The notes beneath the pieces were generated by a model. That model was not told the DNA's origin and did not search any database. It was given only the letters and a program-made list of their open reading frames with translations. From Shimia ponticola (lineage in GTDB: Bacteria > Pseudomonadota > Alphaproteobacteria > Rhodobacterales > Rhodobacteraceae), in NCBI RefSeq assembly GCF_007995215.1, contig NZ_VCDK01000006.1:584125-648124 (forward strand): a DNA stretch of 64,000 nt. Reading direction: 5' to 3'. Both the position numbers and the translations under genes were made by a program. Positions 1 through 9,326 of the stretch are shown piece by piece; the stretch's first letter is position 1, and each line of letters starts with the position of its first letter.

Positions 1-270
1 TTGACCGGAAAAGGCCCGATGACTGGCAACAACGTCAGCCACGCCAACAACAAGACCAAGCGTCGGTTTCTGCCGAACCTGAACGACCAGACCCTGCACT
101 CGGAAGTGCTGGATCGCTCGTTCAAACTGCGCATCTCGGCTTCGGCTCTGCGCTCGGTCGACCATCGTGGTGGCCTTGACGCGTTCCTTGCCAAAGCCAA
201 AGACGAAGAGCTGTCGGCCAACGCGCTGAAGATCAAAAAAGACATCGCAAAGGCGCAGGCGTCGGCGTAA
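1..270 (+). CDS. rpmB: 50S ribosomal protein L28, 5' end cut by window edge
   Basis: Structural protein of the large ribosomal subunit. The visible 89 residues carry the L28 signature: [20 protein letters not shown] followed by [10 protein letters not shown], then [17 protein letters not shown]. The family normally begins with about six more residues before this point, so the leading TTG is read as an internal Leu codon and the true start lies upstream of the window. The C-terminus is intact, with a KKDIAKAQ helix before the stop. A stem-loop with a following T-rich stretch lies 29 bases downstream and would end the transcript. Confidence 0.97.
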
Positions 271-298
271 GCCCCTGACCATATTGCGGAACTGATGT

Positions 299-334
299 AC
301 AGCCCTGCCGATCCGGCGGGGCTGTTTCATTTTG
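299..334 (+). terminator. Rho-independent terminator after rpmB
   Basis: ACAGCCC (299-305) pairs with GGGCTGT (319-325), with further GCC/GGC pairing inside the loop. It is followed by TTTCATTTTG. Position just behind rpmB fits a simple intrinsic terminator. Confidence 0.7.
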
Positions 335-374
335 TCCGCTTGTTACGCAGGCCGGATTGTTTACATCCACACCC

Positions 375-722
375 ATGTTATTGCGTCGCACTCTAATTGG
401 CCTGTGGCTGGTGGTGGCAAGTGTCACGCACCTCGCTGCTGGCGTTGCGACGGGCGCAGCGGAACCCACCTCGACCATCGTGATCTGTCGCGGTCATGCC
501 GCCGTCACCATCCATCTGGACGCCAATGGTCAAGAGGTCGAAGGCTGGACGCTATGCCCAGAGGTCATTGGCACTCTGTTGGCCGCGGTTGATGCGGGGC
601 AGTCCTCTGTTTTTTTCACAGACACTTCGGCCACGACGCTTTCACTGAGTCGCACCGCACCGCAGACCGACGGTCTGCGCGGGCACCAACAACGCTCCCG
701 GGGGCCGCCTGTTTCGGTTTGA
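375..722 (+). CDS. Small exported protein next to the copper chaperone, DUF2946-like
   Basis: A protein of about 115 residues with an N-terminal export signal (MLLRRTLIGLWLVVAS, then a small-residue region). The mature part holds a short pattern, VICRGHAAVTIHLDANGQ followed by a CP pair, that resembles the start of DUF2946-type proteins often seen beside copper-handling genes. The C-terminal 30 residues look low in structure. The in-frame ATG at 357 is an alternative start; 375 was chosen because MLLRR makes a better signal-peptide n-region. It ends 40 bases before the PCuAC gene on the same strand, so a shared role in periplasmic copper handling is an inference from context and a weak family resemblance. 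Confidence 0.55.
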   Translation: MLLRRTLIGLWLVVASVTHLAAGVATGAAEPTSTIVICRGHAAVTIHLDANGQEVEGWTLCPEVIGTLLAAVDAGQSSVFFTDTSATTLSLSRTAPQTDGLRGHQQRSRGPPVSV

Positions 723-762
723 ACCAACAAACTGACAGACATCCAATACTCGGAGCTTTCCA

Positions 763-1314
763 ATGCTGACCAAACTCTTTGCGCGCGCGACTGCGCCCGT
801 TCTGGCTGCGGCCCTTACCTTCTCGTCCCCCGTTTTCGCCGATGGCATGGGGCTTATGATCGATGACCCCTATGCGCGCAGCGCGACGTCCATGTCGACA
901 TCCGGCGCGGCCTTCATGGCGATCACGAACCACAGCGACACAGATGATCAACTGATTTCGGCTGCGACAGATATCGCAGCGCGTGTCGAACTACACACCC
1001 ATACCGAGGATGAAAACGGCGTCATGCGCATGCGCGAGGTCGAAGGCGGTATCCCAATCCCCGCCGGTGAAACCACCGTTTTGCAGCGCGGCGGATTGCA
1101 CGTGATGCTGATGGGCCTGACTGAAGGACTGGAGCAAGGCGATGAAATCGATGTGACGCTGACGTTCGAGAATGCGGGCGACATGGTGGTGAGCATACCG
1201 GTCGACAATGAACGCAAGGCGTCCCATGGCGGGATGCAAGGGCATGGGTCACATGATCACGGGGCCATGGACCACGGCGACAAGGACGAAGACCATTCCG
1301 GTCACAACCACTGA
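763..1314 (+). CDS. Periplasmic copper chaperone PCuAC (DUF461)
   Basis: Exported Cu(I) chaperone of the PCuAC family, which delivers copper to the CuA site of cytochrome oxidase together with SCO proteins. Residues 1-26 form a signal peptide ending SSPVFA. The family H-M...M...H-x-M copper site is visible as VELHTHTEDENGVMRMR followed, about 21 residues on, by GGLHVMLMGL. The last 30 residues are very rich in His, Met and Asp (HGSHDHGAMDHGD), an extra metal-binding tail found in many alphaproteobacterial members. It is convergent with cobB, with only 10 bases between the two stop codons. Confidence 0.93.
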   Translation: MLTKLFARATAPVLAAALTFSSPVFADGMGLMIDDPYARSATSMSTSGAAFMAITNHSDTDDQLISAATDIAARVELHTHTEDENGVMRMREVEGGIPIPAGETTVLQRGGLHVMLMGLTEGLEQGDEIDVTLTFENAGDMVVSIPVDNERKASHGGMQGHGSHDHGAMDHGDKDEDHSGHNH

Positions 1315-1324
1315 TCACCTGTCC

Positions 1325-2065
1325 TTAGGACGGAAATGGCGCGTCGGATCCCGGTCCGGCGCGCCCTTTTGTTGCAAACCGCTCTTTGATCTCGGCCACC
1401 CATAGCGGCACGGTGTGCGTCGCAGGCCCCGCGATCACCCGATCAAAAATCGGGTTGCCGGACGGCTCCAGCGTCAATTCGTGACATTCCGCTCCGGCCT
1501 GCTGCGCAAACTCTCCAAACCCGGCAGCGGGATAGACCTGACCAGATGTTCCAATGGCGGCAAAAACCTCGGCCTGTGACAGCGCCTCCAGGATTCGGTC
1601 CATGTGATACGGGATTTCTCCAAACCAGACGATGTCAGGGCGTGCGCTCGGCGCCCCGCAGGATGGGCAGGCATGCCCAACTTCTAACTCTGTGGGTGAC
1701 GGCCACCTGTGCCCGCAGGAGGCACACAGCGCCTGATCCAACTGACCATGCATATGCACCACCGCCCGGCTGCCGCCCGCCTCGTGCAGGCTATCCACGT
1801 TCTGTGTCACGAGCAGCAAGTCATCGCCAAAGGCGTGACCCAAATCAGTCAAAGCAATATGCGCGGCATTCGGTTGCGCTTTTGCCGCTCCTGCGCGGCG
1901 CTCGTTGTAGAACCGCTGAACCAGCGCCGGGTTGCGCGCGAACGCCTCTGGCGTTGCCACATCCTCAACTCGGTGGTTCTCCCAAAGGCCTCCACCACCG
2001 CGAAAGGTGTTCAGCCCGCTTTCGGCGGAAATTCCTGCGCCGGTCAGGATCACGATCTGGCTCAT
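1325..2065 (-). CDS. cobB: NAD-dependent protein deacylase, sirtuin (CobB type)
   Basis: Removes acyl groups from protein lysines while consuming NAD. The Rossmann motif GAGISAESG lies at residues 9-17, TQNVD follows around 87, and the catalytic His is in VHMHGQ. A zinc ribbon is formed by CASC and CPSC, and GTS follows. The pair FYNERR places Tyr and Arg as in class III sirtuins, which in E. coli CobB and SIRT5 favour succinyl and other acidic acyl groups. At 246 residues the length is normal. The start faces the phosphatase gene at 2093 with 27 bases between, so both probably fire from one small divergent promoter region. Confidence 0.95.
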   Translation of the reverse strand: MSQIVILTGAGISAESGLNTFRGGGGLWENHRVEDVATPEAFARNPALVQRFYNERRAGAAKAQPNAAHIALTDLGHAFGDDLLLVTQNVDSLHEAGGSRAVVHMHGQLDQALCASCGHRWPSPTELEVGHACPSCGAPSARPDIVWFGEIPYHMDRILEALSQAEVFAAIGTSGQVYPAAGFGEFAQQAGAECHELTLEPSGNPIFDRVIAGPATHTVPLWVAEIKERFATKGRAGPGSDAPFPS

Positions 2066-2092
2066 GGGCGCAGGCTATGGCAGGTAGAGGCC

Positions 2093-2518
2093 ATGCGCAT
2101 CCTCTTTGTCTGTCTCGGCAACATCTGCCGGTCCCCAACCGCCGAAGCCATCGCCCGCAATCAAGGGCTGGCGTGTGACAGTGCCGGGACCGGGAATTGG
2201 CATATTGGCAAACCACCTTATGGACCGATGCAGGATGCCGCCCGCGCGAGGGGTATCGACATGTCAGGCCTCCGCGCCCGGCAATTCGGTCATGCTGATT
2301 TCCATGATTTTGATCTGATCATCGGGATGGATGACGAAAACATCGCCAATATTGAGGCACTGCGCCCGACTGGGTCAGAGACACCGGTTGTAAAACTGAC
2401 CGACTATGGCAGCAGCGCCGATCACGTCCCTGACCCGTATTTCACCCGCGATTTTGACGAGGCGCTCGACATTATTGACGACGCCATCACCGGGCTGCGC
2501 CAGACCATTCAGGGCTGA
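2093..2518 (+). CDS. Low molecular weight protein-tyrosine phosphatase
   Basis: Cytosolic phosphotyrosine phosphatase of 141 residues. The P-loop CLGNICRSP is at residues 7-15, with the nucleophilic Cys and the phosphate-binding Arg. The general-acid motif DPYF occurs near residue 112 in HVPDPYFTRDFDEAL. The reading frame stays open for 384 bases further upstream, antisense to cobB, but ATG 2093 (MRILFVCLGN) is the family start. The substrate is not predictable; no partner tyrosine kinase or polysaccharide export gene lies nearby. Confidence 0.95.
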   Translation: MRILFVCLGNICRSPTAEAIARNQGLACDSAGTGNWHIGKPPYGPMQDAARARGIDMSGLRARQFGHADFHDFDLIIGMDDENIANIEALRPTGSETPVVKLTDYGSSADHVPDPYFTRDFDEALDIIDDAITGLRQTIQG

Positions 2519-2563
2519 CTCAGGTCCTTCTATGTTTCAAAAATACTCAAATCCGGCGCGCGC

Positions 2564-2905
2564 CTACCCGCGGCACGACCGCTCAGCCGTGCGTGCAAAG
2601 GCCTTGTAGCGGTCCCAAAACGCGTCGGCGGCCGGGCCATCTGCGGTGCGGGCATCTTGTGCTCTTTGAGGATCGGCGAAAAAGCCAACGGCGCGCGCCC
2701 GGTCGCGGCTGCTGAGTTCTCGATTGGCAACGGCCTGAACACACCCGCAAAGTTGCCGTGACGCAGCTTTGCGACCCGCTGCAAGGCAGGCATCTTTGAT
2801 CGGTCCTTCGGCGTAATAGGCAAGACGCGCGCTTGATCCGCCCCGGTCACCGCCACCACAGCCCGCCAATGCCGCTGCCGCGACAATCATCAGTATTACT
2901 CGCAT
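2564..2905 (-). CDS. Small lipoprotein, conserved in roseobacters, function unknown
   Basis: A protein of 113 residues beginning with a lipoprotein signal, MRVILMIVAAAALAGCGGG, where LAGC is the lipobox and Cys16 would be lipidated. The mature part has three more cysteines (DACLAAG, LCGCVQAV) and a final one in ERSCRG, plus a Phe/Tyr-rich helix (FFADPQRAQD, AFWDRYKAFA). Similar proteins in roseobacters are sometimes labelled arginine transporter, but nothing here resembles a transporter. Even cysteine spacing suggests a small disulfide-stabilised periplasmic domain. Location is well supported; role is unknown. Confidence 0.8.
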   Translation of the reverse strand: MRVILMIVAAAALAGCGGGDRGGSSARLAYYAEGPIKDACLAAGRKAASRQLCGCVQAVANRELSSRDRARAVGFFADPQRAQDARTADGPAADAFWDRYKAFARTAERSCRG

Positions 2906-3035
2906 GTTCCGGCCTCTGCTCTGCCATCCGTCCGGTCTTATGCCGGTTCCTCATATCGTGCCACGGCAAGGCAGCCTTGGCAATTGGCGCGCGGTCGCAC
3001 ACCTGCCTTTAGGCGGACAATTGGCCGTGATGGGG

Positions 3036-3431
3036 CTACCCGAGATCCACACGTCCTTTGTATTCGATCTGGCCATCAAGATAGACGTTGACCGACACTG
3101 TGCGTGCCACAGCAGGCCCCAGATCAATGCGGATTTCCCGCGGCATGAGAGGCGCTCTGTTCACAGGCTCGGGACGGCGGGGTTGCAGAAAGTCGGGGTC
3201 GACGCCCGTGCCGCGGCTGGGCGCGCTGTTCTCCATGGTGCGCATTTCGGGTGGGTCAAAGTCCGGCCGCCATTGCGCTGTGCTTAAATCGACGCGGAGC
3301 GTTTGCGGATCAAGCCAACGGAATGCGTGATCCTTGAAGTAATGCGACCGCGACAGCATCCCTTTGATCATTAGGTAATCGCGGCCCTCCGCGCGTTGGG
3401 TGGTAATGGTTGGTTCAGACAGGCGCGGCAT
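3036..3431 (-). CDS. Unrecognised beta-rich protein, third member of a local family
   Basis: I do not recognise this 131-residue protein. It has no signal peptide or membrane segment. Its first half (AEGRDYLMIKGMLSRSHYF, then PQTLRVDLSTAQ) and last strand (VSVNVYLDGQIEYKG) follow the pattern of the proteins at 3435-3725 and 4121-4423, suggesting a diverged paralogue. A Pro/Arg-rich insertion of about 45 residues sits in the middle (SRGTGVDPDFLQPRRPEPVN). It starts three bases after the upstream stop and has no ribosome site of its own, so it is probably translated by coupling. It is the last gene of the five-gene cassette. Confidence 0.7.
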   Translation of the reverse strand: MPRLSEPTITTQRAEGRDYLMIKGMLSRSHYFKDHAFRWLDPQTLRVDLSTAQWRPDFDPPEMRTMENSAPSRGTGVDPDFLQPRRPEPVNRAPLMPREIRIDLGPAVARTVSVNVYLDGQIEYKGRVDLG

Positions 3432-3434
3432 GGT

Positions 3435-3725
3435 CTAGGCGAGAATGAAGGAGCCGCCGGCCACGGCAGCGTCATTGCATGTGATGGTGTAAGAACAGGT
3501 GCCCGCCGGCATGGCGTCTAGCGACACGGTTTCGCGGACTTGTTTCAGCATCATGGCCGTCATTCCTCCGGATGATCCGCTGTCGTCGGTGTAATACCCA
3601 ACGCTGATCTGGTTCCCGTTTGTCGAGATATGCGGGCCGCGCAGGGCGATGCCCACATGAGGTAGGGTCCCTGAAATAATCAGGCTGCGACCCTCTGGGG
3701 TCACGGATGTTACAGTCAAAGTCAT
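3435..3725 (-). CDS. Unrecognised beta-rich protein, second member of a local family
   Basis: A 96-residue protein with alternating hydrophobic residues typical of a beta sandwich. EGRSLIISGTL matches EGRDYLMIKGML of the downstream gene, and NQISVGYYTDD matches SELHVRINTRD of the gene at 4121-4423. Two cysteines (GTCSYTITCND) could pair, but no signal peptide is present. ATG 3725 was chosen over the frame opening at 3935 because GGAGG lies just upstream of it. It sits 58 bases after a coiled-coil gene and 3 bases before another beta-rich gene on the same strand. No function is proposed. Confidence 0.75.
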   Translation of the reverse strand: MTLTVTSVTPEGRSLIISGTLPHVGIALRGPHISTNGNQISVGYYTDDSGSSGGMTAMMLKQVRETVSLDAMPAGTCSYTITCNDAAVAGGSFILA

Positions 3726-3783
3726 CGAATTACCTCCTTCGATTGCCCCCCGGCGCGCGAGCGCACCGGGGGCCGATCCGCGA

Positions 3784-3987
3784 TCAGGAATTGGCGCGCT
3801 TGGTCGCCTCTTGCGCGGCTCTGACCGCGTCACGTTTGCGCTGCTCGGCCTCTTGGCGCATTTGCGCGGCCTGACGGCGCGCATCCGCAGTCGTGGCGGC
3901 ATTTTCCATCTCGTAGGCGCGTTTGATTTCCTCATCAGCTGCGTTCATCGCGTTGACGGCGGATTGTTGATCTGCTGTGCGGCCCAT
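3784..3987 (-). CDS. Small charged coiled-coil protein
   Basis: A 67-residue protein, almost entirely predicted helix, rich in Ala, Arg, Glu and Gln (ARRQAAQMRQEAEQRKRDAV). Heptad-like spacing of Ala and Met suggests a coiled coil. There is no signal peptide. AGGAGG lies about seven bases before ATG 3987. It precedes the beta-rich gene at 3435-3725, just as the coiled-coil gene at 4507-4761 precedes the one at 4121-4423, so the helical and beta proteins may act in pairs. Not recognised as a known family. Confidence 0.65.
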   Translation of the reverse strand: MGRTADQQSAVNAMNAADEEIKRAYEMENAATTADARRQAAQMRQEAEQRKRDAVRAAQEATKRANS

Positions 3988-4120
3988 GAATTGGCCCTCC
4001 TGTGTTTAAGGTTTTTGATTTGAATGAGTGCTGAAACAAGCAACGCCAAAAGAGTTGCGAGAATTGTCAACTGGGAAAAGTCGGGAAACCCTGACCCAAT
4101 CCCATGCGTCCGAAATGAGA

Positions 4121-4423
4121 TTAGGACAAATTCAAGATCTTCTCCGGGCTTCCATCCACGAAAATATGGACAAGATACTGGTTTTGGATCGCTTCATCCG
4201 GAATTGGCGCGGCAAGCTTCTGTGTGGTCAGCACCTGCGCGCTTACGCCGCCGGGATTGGCGTCCCGCGTGTTGATCCGGACATGCAGTTCACTGCCACG
4301 CAAGATAATCTGATCGACGCTGGCTTTTATGGCCGGGGTGGCAGTTTCGACGTCAATCATCAACGTTGCGGGATGCGTCTCGGCCAGACTCCAGCCTGTG
4401 ACGCGGGCGCGGAATGGGGTCAT
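4121..4423 (-). CDS. Unrecognised beta-rich protein, first member of a local family
   Basis: A 100-residue protein without signal or membrane segment. Strand-like stretches are ATLMIDVETAT, SELHVRINTRD and QYLVHIFVDGSPEK. The last resembles VSVNVYLDGQIEYKG at the end of the protein at 3036-3431, and the middle one resembles the second family member. ATG 4423 is preceded by TGAGGAG; the longer opening at 4477 lacks a ribosome site. Gaps of 83 and 133 bases separate it from its neighbours on the same strand. Function unknown. Confidence 0.72.
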   Translation of the reverse strand: MTPFRARVTGWSLAETHPATLMIDVETATPAIKASVDQIILRGSELHVRINTRDANPGGVSAQVLTTQKLAAPIPDEAIQNQYLVHIFVDGSPEKILNLS

Positions 4424-4506
4424 GTTGTTGGAACTCCTCAGAAAATGGTGCGTGCGGGAAGCCACATGCTCCCGCACAGGTTTGTTTGGAACTGTTTGAG
4501 CGCTGC

Positions 4507-4761
4507 CTAATGTGCTGCGGCTTTGGCCTCTTGGATGGCGCGGACACGATCCGCCCAGTCCTTGGTCCGGCGCGCAGCCTCTTCAAGTTCAAGGCGTTTG
4601 TTGTCGCGGGTGGAATGTTGGTCTGCGAGAATACCACTCTTGTCGAGGTCGCGGTAATAATCGGAGTCCCATTTGGCTTTGACTTCACGCTCGTGTTTCT
4701 CGGCGGCGCGAAGCTGCTTTAGGCTGCGTTGGTATTCCTTGTTTTCGTAAAGGGTCGTCAT
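4507..4761 (-). CDS. Small charged coiled-coil protein, first gene of the cassette
   Basis: An 84-residue, highly charged, helix-forming protein (YQRSLKQLRAAEKHEREVKA near the N-terminus and RLELEEAARRTKDWADRVRA near the C-terminus), with a short non-helical break around LDKSGILADQHST. It would fold as two helices joined by a loop. No signal peptide. It is the promoter-proximal gene of a five-gene minus-strand cassette and is divergent from lepA across 348 bases. Not recognised as a known family. Confidence 0.7.
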   Translation of the reverse strand: MTTLYENKEYQRSLKQLRAAEKHEREVKAKWDSDYYRDLDKSGILADQHSTRDNKRLELEEAARRTKDWADRVRAIQEAKAAAH

Positions 4762-5109
4762 GGTCGCAATTCCATTTAATCGTGCTTCTGAATGGTCTTA
4801 GATTGTGTGGGGAATTGCTATCTCACCAGTAAGGAAAGCCGCACCCCTGTTTGGGGGATTGTTTCTTTGGGTGGCTGCTGTTTCTGGGCCAGACGCGATT
4901 GATCCGTGCTGAGCGCAAGGCTGCACAAGCGCCGCTCGTGGGGCTGATCTAGACCTCAGCGGAACGCAGCAAACACCGGGTCTCCAAGACCTCTTTTGGC
5001 CGACTGATTGTGGGGTGTGAGACGCACAAAAGACGCCTGTCGACACTGTGCATTTTCAACGCAGCCGCACGACCTTGACCGGGACCCCAACCTGCAGCAT
5101 ATCCGGTCC
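4762..5109. other. Divergent intergenic region between small-gene cassette and lepA
   Basis: 348 bases without a convincing gene. It must contain the promoters for the minus-strand cassette and for lepA. I see no tRNA, no strong hairpin and no clear ribosome site before lepA. Reading frames that cross it have no familiar sequence. Confidence 0.5.
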
Positions 5110-6906
5110 ATGACACCGCTTTCAAACATCCGCAATTTCTCGATCGTGGCCCACATCGACCACGGGAAATCGACGCTGGCTGACCGCCTGATCCAGTCCA
5201 CGAACACCGTGGCGGACCGGGACATGAAGGAGCAGCTGCTCGACAGCATGGATATCGAACGCGAGCGCGGGATCACGATCAAGGCGAACACGGTGCGCAT
5301 TGATTACAAAGCCGCTGATGGTCAGGACTATGTTCTCAACCTGATCGACACCCCAGGACACGTGGACTTTGCCTATGAGGTGTCTCGGTCGATGCGCGCG
5401 GTCGAAGGGTCGCTGTTGGTCGTCGATAGCACCCAAGGGGTCGAAGCACAGACGCTGGCCAACGTTTATCAGGCCATCGACGCAGACCATGAGATTGTCC
5501 CGGTCCTGAACAAGATCGACCTGCCAGCCTCGGAACCCGAGCGCGTGGCTGAACAGATCGAGGATGTGATCGGCATCGACGCCACCGATGCTTTGCTCGT
5601 GTCGGCCAAATCTGGCATCGGCATCCCAGAGACACTTGAGGCCATCGTGCAGCGATTGCCCGCGCCCGACGGCAACGAAGATGCGCCGTTGAAGGCGATG
5701 CTGGTGGACAGTTGGTACGACGCCTATCTTGGTGTCATCGTCCTGATCCGCGTGATCGACGGTCGTCTGAAAAAGGGCGAAAAGGTCAAGTTCATGTCGA
5801 ATGACTCGATCCACCATGTGGATCGCATCGGCGTGTTCCGTCCCGAGATGGAGAACGTCGACAGCCTCGGCCCCGGCGAAATCGGTTTCCTCACCGCGTC
5901 GATCAAACAGGTCCGCGACACTCGCGTGGGTGACACCATCACCCACCAGCGCAACGAAGTTGAGCCGCTGCCGGGCTTTAAGCCTGCGCAACCGGTGGTG
6001 TTCTGTGGCCTCTTCCCAGTGGATAGTGCCGAGTTCGAGGACCTGCGCGACGCGATTGAGAAACTCGCGCTCAACGATGCGAGCTTCAGCTTCGAGATGG
6101 AAACCTCCGCCGCCCTCGGCTTTGGCTTCCGCTGCGGCTTCCTCGGGCTTTTGCACCTTGAAGTGATCCGCGATCGCATCGAACGCGAATATAACATCGA
6201 ATTGATCACCACCGCGCCGTCGGTGATCTACCACGTCTACATGAAGGACGGCACGCAGATCGACCTGCACAACCCCGCCGACATGCCCGACGTCACGCTG
6301 GTCGACCATATTGAAGAACCCCGGATCAAGGCGACGATCCTTGTGCCTGACGACTATCTGGGCGACGTGCTCAAGCTCTGCCAGGACCGCCGTGGCATCC
6401 AACTCGACCTGACCTATGCCGGCTCCCGCGCTATGGCAGTCTATGACCTGCCCCTGAACGAGGTCGTCTTTGACTTCTACGACCGCCTGAAATCGGTGAC
6501 CAAGGGCTACGCGTCCTTTGACTATCAGATGGAGGGCTACCGTCAGGACAACCTCGTCAAGATGTCCGTTCTCGTGAACGAGGAACCGGTCGACGCGCTG
6601 TCGATGATGGTCCACCGCGACCGCGCCGAACAACGCGGCCGCGCCATGTGCGAAAAGCTCAAAGACCTCATCCCCCGACACATGTTCAAAATCCCGATCC
6701 AGGCGGCCATCGGCGGCAAGGTCATCGCGCGCGAGACACTGTCGGCACTCCGCAAAGACGTGACTGCCAAATGCTACGGCGGCGACGCGACGCGTAAGAA
6801 GAAGCTGCTGGAAAAGCAGAAGGCCGGTAAGAAGAAGATGCGCCAGTTTGGGAAAGTCGACATACCGCAGGAAGCTTTCATAAGTGCGCTTAAGATGGAC
6901 GGCTAA
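5110..6906 (+). CDS. lepA: Elongation factor 4 (LepA), ribosome back-translocase GTPase
   Basis: Membrane-associated GTPase that acts on the ribosome under stress and during subunit biogenesis. G1 is AHIDHGKST at residues 14-22, the G2 region is [11 protein letters not shown]3 is DTPGH and G4 is NKIDLP. The EF-G-like domains and the LepA-specific C-terminal domain ([20 protein letters not shown], then [15 protein letters not shown]) are all present. The 598 residues match the usual 599. ATG 5110 ([15 protein letters not shown]) is the family start, though no strong ribosome site precedes it. The last twelve codons and the stop are part of a long inverted repeat (6874-6937). Confidence 0.97.
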
Positions 6907-6937
6907 AGCCGTCCATCCCGCGCGCACTTATGAAAGC
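6874..6937. repeat. Long inverted repeat spanning the lepA stop codon
   Basis: Outer arms of 16 bases (6874-6889 and 6922-6937) are perfect reverse complements. A 5-base bulge on each side separates them from inner arms ATGGACGGCT (6895-6904) and AGCCGTCCAT (6907-6916), also perfect. The whole folds into one 26-pair hairpin whose tip is the TAA stop. No T-run follows, so a pure terminator role is not proven. Confidence 0.85.
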
Positions 6938-6944
6938 GGTGCGC

Positions 6945-6996
6945 GAAAGCGACTTTCTGCAAGAAAGTCTGCGGGCGCACTCGGTGCAGAAAAGAG
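6945..6996 (+). repeat. 52-base repeat, copy 1, with hairpin
   Basis: Matches 7014-7065 over its whole length with scattered differences. It contains GACTTTCT-GCA-AGAAAGTC (6951-6969), a perfect 8-pair stem with a three-base loop, then GTCTGCGG and CGGTGCAGAA. Two stem pairs differ from copy 2 in a compensated way. Confidence 0.8.
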
Positions 6997-7013
6997 TACT
7001 GTCGCCCGTCGGG

Positions 7014-7065
7014 GAAAGCGACTTTTGGAACAAAAGTCTGCGGCCCGACCCGGTGCAGAAGAGAG
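7014..7065 (+). repeat. 52-base repeat, copy 2, with hairpin
   Basis: Second copy of the unit at 6945-6996. Its stem is GACTTTTG-GAA-CAAAAGTC (7019-7037): same length and loop size, but pairs seven and eight are T-A and G-C where copy 1 has C-G and T-A. Selection or copying that preserves pairing is indicated. Confidence 0.8.
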
Positions 7066-7161
7066 CGCAACGCTGCAGCCATACCACCCGCAGCCCCGGA
7101 CCCGATCCGGGGCCTCAAACCACCCAACCCTTCCAAATCACACTCCCAATCACCAAACCCG

Positions 7162-7236
7162 CCCGGTGGGAACCACCGGGCAGCGCCCGACCCTCCCCCC
7201 GGGAGGGCGCTTCACGCCCACCCAGGGTCGGGCGCT
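7162..7236. repeat. Cluster of GC-rich hairpins
   Basis: CCCGGTGG (7162-7169) pairs with CCACCGGG (7173-7180) around a GAA loop. AGCGCCCGACCCT (7182-7194) pairs with AGGGTCGGGCGCT (7224-7236), and a nested CCCTCCC/GGGAGGG stem lies inside. Similar GC-rich folds occur between genes in other roseobacters as far as I recall. With 6874-7065 this makes the stretch after lepA almost continuous secondary structure. Confidence 0.7.
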
Positions 7237-7351
7237 GGTCCCAAGAGCCATTTAGAGAAGCAAATCGCTTTTATTCACCCAACATCTGATTAAACTCCCG
7301 GTAAGCGTGCAGATTTAAGCATCCGTTGCACAATGTTAAATGAGGAACTTT

Positions 7352-8734
7352 ATGACCACCTTTTCGTCGGGACACCTTAACAGTGACGAAGTCAAAGCCT
7401 TGTGTGCTCTGGATGAAGGACAAAGAATGGATTTGAAATCTGCGAGAATACAGCCTGCAAAACTGTCCCAGGCAATATCAGCTTTTGCAAACACAGATGG
7501 CGGTGAGCTCTATATTGGCATTGAAGATGATAAAGCCTGGAAGGGATTTGAAAAGCAGGAGGAGGCGAATGGCCTTACGAGTGTAATTTTTGACATGTTC
7601 CCTGTTCAGGACTATCTGCATGCGTCATTCCTGACCGGTGAAGGTCAACATGGGTATGTGCTAAAATTGGAGATATTTCGAACTCCAGATGTTAAATTTG
7701 CCACCAACGGGAATGCCTACACACGGTTTGGAGCGCAAAATAGGAAGGTCGCTGGTTCAGATGCAATTATGCGTCTCAAGTACACGAAGGGAGTGCACTC
7801 GTTTGAAGATGAGTTGGTCAATGACTCGATAGAGGATGTAGTAAACTCCCTTGCAATCCTAGAATTCTCTCTCAGTTTGCCAACTGAGCCTGAGCCAATT
7901 GAATGGCTTAAGAAGCAAAAGCTCATTTCCGGCGGCCGAGCTAATGTTGCCGCATACATGCTCTTCGGCGAGGAGCCGCAAATCGAGTTTCCTAAAGCTG
8001 CGGTCAAGATTTATAGATATAAAACGGCTGCCCCTGAGGGAACACGTGACACGCTTGCATTTGATCCCAAGACCATCGATGGACCACTTGTGTCGATGAT
8101 TTCGGAGGCGGTAAAAACCACCAAGGAAGCTGTCCAAGATATCCCGAAAATCGGTGCGGTTGGTCTTGAGTCGGTTGTTTACCCCGAAGAGGCAATTCAC
8201 GAAGTGTTAACCAATGCCGTATTGCATCGAGATTATAGCGCAAAGGATGAAGTGCACATTCGGATTTTTGACAACAGAATCGAAATATTTAGCCCCGGTA
8301 AGTTGCCTGGGTACGTTACTCCACAGAATATTTTGAAGGAGAGATTTGCCCGAAATCCAAAGATGGTTAGGATCGCCAATAAATTTCCGAACGCCCCAAA
8401 CAAAGACATCGGAGAAGGGTTGAATACTACCTTTGAGAAAATGCGTGAACTAAAGCTTCGCGACCCCGTTATTGCAGAGTCTGAGGCTGGAGTTACAGTT
8501 ACTTTGTTTCATGAACTGCTCGCATCGCCGGAGGAGATTATTAGTAAATACCTTGTTGAACATGGAGAAATAAATAACTCGAAAGCGAGGGAGATTTGTA
8601 GGGAGGGTAGTGAAAACAAAATTAAGCGAGTTTTTGAACGTATGATGGGTTCCGAAATCATTGAAAGAATTCCGGGAAAGAGGGGTAGGGCCACTTCATA
8701 TAGACTTAAGGTGATTGAAGCGGATGAAAGCTGA
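7352..8734 (+). CDS. AlbA_2 (Schlafen-type) ATP-binding protein, probably acquired
   Basis: A 460-residue protein with an N-terminal AlbA_2 domain (EGQRMDLKSARIQPAKLSQA, then FANTDGGELYIGIED), a nucleic-acid-binding fold also found in Schlafen proteins. A GHKL-like ATPase region follows (EEAIHEVLTNAVLHRDYS, then IFDNRIEIFSPGKLPG), and a winged-helix C-terminus (SKAREICREGSENKIKRVFE). Such proteins are regulators or defence-associated factors. ATG 7352 was preferred to 7340 because TGAGGA lies five bases before it. The codon choice is clearly AT-richer than the flanking genes, and the gene sits between a repeat field and a transposase-like gene, so recent transfer is likely. Its target is unknown. 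Confidence 0.8.
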   Translation: MTTFSSGHLNSDEVKALCALDEGQRMDLKSARIQPAKLSQAISAFANTDGGELYIGIEDDKAWKGFEKQEEANGLTSVIFDMFPVQDYLHASFLTGEGQHGYVLKLEIFRTPDVKFATNGNAYTRFGAQNRKVAGSDAIMRLKYTKGVHSFEDELVNDSIEDVVNSLAILEFSLSLPTEPEPIEWLKKQKLISGGRANVAAYMLFGEEPQIEFPKAAVKIYRYKTAAPEGTRDTLAFDPKTIDGPLVSMISEAVKTTKEAVQDIPKIGAVGLESVVYPEEAIHEVLTNAVLHRDYSAKDEVHIRIFDNRIEIFSPGKLPGYVTPQNILKERFARNPKMVRIANKFPNAPNKDIGEGLNTTFEKMRELKLRDPVIAESEAGVTVTLFHELLASPEEIISKYLVEHGEINNSKAREICREGSENKIKRVFERMMGSEIIERIPGKRGRATSYRLKVIEADES

Positions 8735-8810
8735 TTGTCTACCTCGGTGCTAGAAGCACGATGCCAAAAGAGAAATTGCCGAGCTATGAAAGACGCCGAT
8801 CCCACTCCAA

Positions 8811-9326
8811 TCACTCTGCATCACGTCTGGCATCGCGACTCACCGACGAATGCGGCCACTCATCGGGCGCGCTCACATATCCATGCTTCACTGGATTCCA
8901 CGCGCAATACCGCATGTGATGCCAATAATCGGCCTCGTTTCGGATCAAATGCTCCCAAAATCGGGGTTGCCAAGACCCCACCTCGCCCTTCCGGCGTAGG
9001 GCGGGGTTCACCCCGCCGTACAATGCGCCAACCGGGGCAGGCGGGATAAATCCCGCCCTGCGGCAGCGGCGGGAAAAACCCGCCTTAATCGCACCCCAGC
9101 GTGTTGAAAAATCTGCGTCGCCATCTGGCAATGTCCAAACTGCGTGCAAATGATCCGGCAGCACCACCATCGCCTCAATTCGAAACGGCCGCCGCCTTTG
9201 CACCTCTGCCACCGCAGCTCGCAAATCCGCAACCCGGTCCACGAGCATCCCTGACGACCGATCCGCCAAGTTCACCGTAAAGAAAAACGTCCCACCCGGC
9301 GCATGGGCTCTCACATAGCGCGGCAT
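8811..9326 (-). CDS. REP-associated tyrosine transposase (RAYT), with REP palindromes in frame
   Basis: A Y1-type single-strand transposase of the TnpA-REP family, 171 residues. The HUH motif is LPDHLHAVW with His59 and His61. The likely catalytic Tyr140 is in MRYCAWNPVKHG, and the family box WQPRFWEHLIRNE precedes it. Residues 81-109 form an insert-like Gly/Pro-rich segment encoded by DNA holding three REP-like palindromes (9000-9084). The frame is open and the catalytic residues are present, so the protein may be active. A degenerate relative lies at 9962-10372. Confidence 0.88.
   Translation of the reverse strand: MPRYVRAHAPGGTFFFTVNLADRSSGMLVDRVADLRAAVAEVQRRRPFRIEAMVVLPDHLHAVWTLPDGDADFSTRWGAIKAGFSRRCRRAGFIPPAPVGALYGGVNPALRRKGEVGSWQPRFWEHLIRNEADYWHHMRYCAWNPVKHGYVSAPDEWPHSSVSRDARRDAE
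9000..9084. repeat. Three REP-like palindromes inside the RAYT gene
   Basis: GGCGGGGT/ACCCCGCC (9000-9007, 9010-9017), GGCGGGAT/ATCCCGCC (9040-9047, 9050-9057) and GGCGGG/CCCGCC (9068-9073, 9079-9084). All share a GGCGGG core. They lie in the coding strand of the transposase without breaking its frame. Confidence 0.8.

Follow-up and report, generated by a model that had tools for sequence, protein, structure and literature searches.

Accessory genes that are restricted to one lineage are common, and most of them are uncharacterised. Among beta-sandwich proteins of the immunoglobulin (Ig)-like kind, DUF3244 of Bacteroides, filamin repeats and FN3 are exported or belong to large proteins. Here we describe a cassette of five small genes, named A to E in the order of transcription, which runs on the minus strand from 4761 to 3036 of a 64,000-nucleotide stretch of Shimia ponticola (Rhodobacteraceae; contig NZ_VCDK01000006.1, hereafter the window), beside lepA (Table 1). 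The cassette is a real accessory set nearly without relatives, and a lineage-restricted accessory operon is its best reading. For genes of this kind the term "taxonomically restricted" is used in PMC1824705. The cassette is similar to taxonomically restricted accessory genes in variable intervals, as it has few relatives and is absent beside lepA in all 17 relatives compared. It differs from them in having five genes with alternation of helical and beta products, and homologues of B and D that apparently stand together in a metagenome. With the Ig-like proteins, B, D and E share no sequence match, and the models of B and D are of low confidence. Unlike the exported Ig-like proteins, B, D and E have no signal-like N-terminus by eye.

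Table 1. Features of the cassette and its borders (positions within the window).
Feature	Position	Strand	Length (amino acids)	Coding score (bits/codon)	Description
Gene A	4507-4761	-	84	0.40	Predicted helical/coiled-coil protein
Gene B	4121-4423	-	100	0.26	Predicted seven-strand beta protein; GAGGAG site; homologue P0003
Gene C	3784-3987	-	67	0.33	Predicted helical protein, Ala/Glu/Arg-rich; AGGAGG site upstream
Hairpin, C-D gap	3747-3772	-			11 bp, GC-rich, without U-run
Gene D	3435-3725	-	96	0.24	Predicted seven-strand Ig-like beta protein; homologue P0005
Gene E	3036-3431	-	131	0.22	Predicted beta protein; Pro/Arg-rich stretch at about residues 54-97
Gene F	2564-2905	-	113	-0.01	Lipobox-like N-terminus; left border of variable interval
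lepA	5098-6906	+			Divergent from cassette; right border of variable interval

An earlier account of the window, made from its letters alone (the sequence-only reading), had placed here five genes in the order coiled coil, beta protein, coiled coil, beta protein, beta protein. The same five open reading frames (ORFs) were found in the same order, and the five look real. A codon score was trained on 29 long ORFs of the window, picked mechanically. All five genes were within the range of these training ORFs (0.08 to 0.51), and each scored higher than its five alternative frames. The measure is not absolute, because gene F scored only -0.01 despite having homologues in relatives. Codon use of all five genes is host-like, and B and D have database homologues.

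Relatives of the encoded proteins are extremely few. In a search of 5.8 billion proteins, which required shared 5-residue words and covered B, D and E, B had one other protein (P0003, 68% identical over the whole length), D had one other protein (P0005, 81% identical over 84%), and E found nothing but itself. P0003 is listed on three contigs and P0005 on one, and because the longest contig is 10,291 bp for both, the homologues of B and D probably lie together in a metagenome. P0005 begins with Val at residue 16 of D. This reflects either a GTG start call or the edge of a contig, and a contig edge would imply a gene order unlike that of the window. B and P0003 are identical at 20 of 20 positions in residues 23-42 versus 48 of 80 elsewhere (p 0.0003), and D and P0005 are identical at 66 of 81 positions, among which no run of identities stands out (p 0.96). 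Both the unchanged block of B and the high identity of D over its 81 aligned residues suggest surfaces held by partners.

Among genomes of the family, B and D were each accepted in none of 293 others (E ≤ 0.01), A in none of 283 and C in none of 273 others (E ≤ 0.001), and E in none of 283 others (E ≤ 0.05). Viral contigs held no confirmed relative of A to E, phage records gave no match better than E of about 1, and plasmids gave chance matches at most. Genome contigs searched with B and D gave nothing beyond chance matches.

Several weak candidates were rejected. For B, five of 294 family genomes, its own included, had a match at E ≤ 0.01, and the four others (E 0.0048-0.0085) were inside frames of 315-795 amino acids, which we take to be a LysR-type regulator and sensor kinases. 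D together with its homologue matched 12 of the 390 genomes of the order at E ≤ 0.05, which were its own and eleven at 0.019-0.043. Six of these eleven belonged to one genus, and the one inspected among them, in L057, is presumably a thiolase; for the other five, the inspected frames of L056, L061 and L062 contained no D-like small gene. E gave 22 of 284 genomes at E ≤ 0.05, its own and 21 at E ≥ 0.0025; the 21 were set aside, and 13 of them had at least one internal stop. For A, one match in the stretch of the same-genus genome G002 (31% over 32 residues, E 6e-4) came up with word size 2 and the filter off; it was absent at E ≤ 1e-3 with the default word size and was rejected as low-complexity. 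A weak match of B to TOBE_2 in Pfam (E 0.05) was also dropped.

None of A to E had a convincing match in Pfam, PHROGs or NCBIfam (best E 0.05), and with these collections none of them was recognised as belonging to a family of nucleases, proteases or nucleotide-binding proteins. This agrees with the first impression of proteins outside known families, except that D bears a precomputed Pfam label, PF27154.1. The label is unconfirmed, as the Pfam version that we searched, in which D had no match, did not include that model. In the same listings P0005, B and E are without the label, and the literature searched has no mention of PF27154. D may belong to the PF27154 family.

The proposed division into helical (A, C) and beta proteins (B, D, E) was borne out by composition. 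The residues A, E, K, R, Q, L and M make up 62% of A and 72% of C, with G and P at 1%, and V, I, T, F, Y and W make up 24-31% of B, D and E. E had a beta-moment z of 2.7. No hydrophobic signal-like stretch was seen by eye at the N-terminus of any of the five, in line with the earlier remark on signal peptides. The sequence-only reading had proposed a shared fold as a check, and the best models of B and D do have the same order of seven strands. These models are of low confidence, with mean predicted local distance difference test (pLDDT) values of only 67.6 for B and 53.2 for D, from alignments of two sequences each. In both models the loop between strands 4 and 5 carries a T-x-D...GG motif, and the strand 4-5 motifs of B and D are retained in their respective homologues.

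It had been claimed that B, D and E are three diverged copies of one protein, which is not established by comparison of the sequences. Pairwise Smith-Waterman scores against 2000 shuffles gave marginal, uncorrected p values of 0.11 for B-D, 0.043 for D-E and 0.028 for B-E, and 0.04-0.13 when a homologue replaced B and/or D. The P values of hhalign were 0.29 for B-D (20 columns), 0.16 for D-E (19) and 0.049 for B-E (13). The B-D alignment pairs TRD-ANPGGVSAQVL of B with TDDSGSSGGMTAMML of D, both between model strands 4 and 5. The B-E alignment departs from the strand register first suggested, as it pairs strand 2 of B with QTLRVDLSTAQ of E. The Pro/Arg-rich stretch of E follows, by eye, the strand which the sequence-only reading had matched to the strand 4-5 place of B and D. 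A and C gave uncorrected p values of 0.0075-0.048, depending on shuffle and gap setting, which is weak for low-complexity helices. Duplication of a helical/beta gene pair, as had been suggested, is possible and not shown by these values.

Shine-Dalgarno-like sites stand just upstream of B, C and D, and that of D, AAGGAGGT, lies 6 nucleotides before its ATG. No clear site of this type was found upstream of A. Between A and B there are 83 nucleotides, between B and C 133, and between C and D 58. The ATG of E begins 3 nucleotides past the stop codon of D, and this close spacing suggests that synthesis of D and E is coupled at translation. For the C-D gap the folding energy is -30.8 kcal/mol (z -1.89), and 8 of 200 shuffles were as stable; its hairpin may serve in processing or in setting stoichiometry. 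No unusual RNA structure was seen in the other two gaps (z -0.61 for A-B and -0.34 for B-C).

The site of the cassette varies among relatives. We take the genes that lie between rpmB (1-270) and lepA in the window to be, in order, a PCuAC-like copper gene, a sirtuin-like gene, a phosphatase, F and those of the cassette; as was said before, these neighbours leave the job of the cassette unexplained. lepA was found in 28 of 30 genomes, own included (E ≤ 1e-100), and its upstream side was compared in 17 other family genomes over about 5-9.5 kb each. No gene of the cassette was present in any of the 17 (E ≤ 1e-3), and no further genome carrying the cassette was found in which to compare the gene order, whose conservation the sequence-only reading had looked to for support. 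On these stretches rpmB was found in 10 and F in 7, and 5 had no core gene among those tested (E ≤ 1e-4). Where F was found, its distance to lepA ranged from 0.29 kb (in G015) to 4.8 kb. Of two genomes in the same genus, G001 carries in this interval a 467-amino-acid gene without Pfam match, and G002 carries a short-chain dehydrogenase, a rhodanese, a molybdopterin oxidoreductase and a ketopantoate reductase. When 1325-6906 was used as a DNA query against both genomes (93% and 87% complete), the flanks were recovered and the cassette was not, with 40 of 64 and 40 of 51 candidates scored; D was not found in either. No insertion repeats were seen at the site. The interval is variable, and the simplest account of the cassette is that this lineage gained it.

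Other genes were observed around lepA. Proteins of one family (353-497 amino acids) are encoded directly upstream of lepA in 3 of the 17 relatives (L012:1602-3005, L045 and L048:532-1593), so that this family is a recurrent occupant of the cassette spot. It has matches, some of them short, in 22 of 100 family genomes, and for two members tested, Pfam gave no match and PHROGs and PADLOC gave nothing convincing. Gene F encodes a small protein, lipobox-like or signal-like, in which an LC(x)C motif is seen by eye, and had no convincing Pfam match (LPAM_1 at E 0.057). F-like genes lie near lepA in L047, L048, L050 and L051, and L050 has two of them consecutively by eye. Downstream of lepA, window 7340-8734 is a gene with Schlafen AlbA_2 and HATPase_c_4 domains and with partial matches to pAgo-type models of PADLOC; it lies in a stretch with a guanine-plus-cytosine (GC) fraction of 0.43-0.48 compared with about 0.6. 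The protein of 8811-9326 has no Pfam match (E ≤ 0.001) and has a PDHLHAVW stretch, which resembles REP-associated tyrosine transposases.

How the five products act can be proposed only tentatively. The account that we prefer, at somewhat below an even chance, is that this same-strand cassette, at a lepA-side site whose content differs between relatives, encodes a hetero-oligomer of two kinds of small subunit, Ig-like beta sandwiches (B, D, E) and the helical partners to which they bind (A, C). A single transcript would span the five genes, D and E would be made in step through translational coupling, and the C-D hairpin may set the ratio of C to D. Assembly would go through the strand 4-5 loop, which is the best candidate contact and carries the T-x-D...GG motif in B and D, and residues 23-42 of B may be an interface. 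The cassette would have been gained by one lineage. As a guess, the complex is accessory cargo related to conflict or to the cell surface. A bolder form of this account has a low probability in our view: an undescribed machine made only of tiny Ig-like and helical subunits, whose cassette would be the product of tandem duplication of a single helical/beta pair and would pass from one close lineage to another via the variable lepA-side site.

Ig-like domains and small helical proteins are frequent in phage particles. The cassette might be a remnant or domesticated structural module that a prophage left behind, the Ig-like products being decoration proteins and the helical ones scaffolds or chaperones. 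The best PHROG of C is a head-morphogenesis family (E 0.05) and its best Pfam match is Phage_B (E 0.11), but neither is significant and both are expected for a coiled coil. The lack of convincing PHROG matches and of relatives in viral contigs and phage records argues against such an origin, which we regard as distinctly unlikely. It also counts against it that positions 1-9000 hold no tRNA and, by eye, no phage gene among their ORFs, although most of these ORFs had no family search and the window ends on the left.

An anti-phage defence, toxin-antitoxin or other conflict cassette in a variable spot would fit the change of this interval among relatives and the low-GC Schlafen/AlbA_2 ATPase gene on the other side of lepA. 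However, each of A to E had 0 PADLOC families even at E ≤ 1, and the absence of recognised nuclease, protease or nucleotide-binding families is also unfavourable, so we consider this unlikely, if credible. Much the same low but appreciable chance is given to five unrelated fast-evolving or new genes, adjacent by chance and without joint function, with a convergent beta pattern. That the resemblance is marginal, both within the beta set and between A and C, is consistent with this reading, as are the A-B and B-C gaps of 83 and 133 nucleotides without unusual RNA structure. The apparent recurrence of B with D in a metagenome, the 3 nucleotides between D and E, and the strand and host-like codon use common to all five speak against it.

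The hetero-oligomer account predicts binding of A to B, of C to D and of D to E, and one transcript for the whole cassette. The cassette is compact, with five genes in 1.7 kb, and none of the relatives tested has it. A helical/beta pairing, if real, would make it a small self-contained assembly system, for which we could match no named counterpart.
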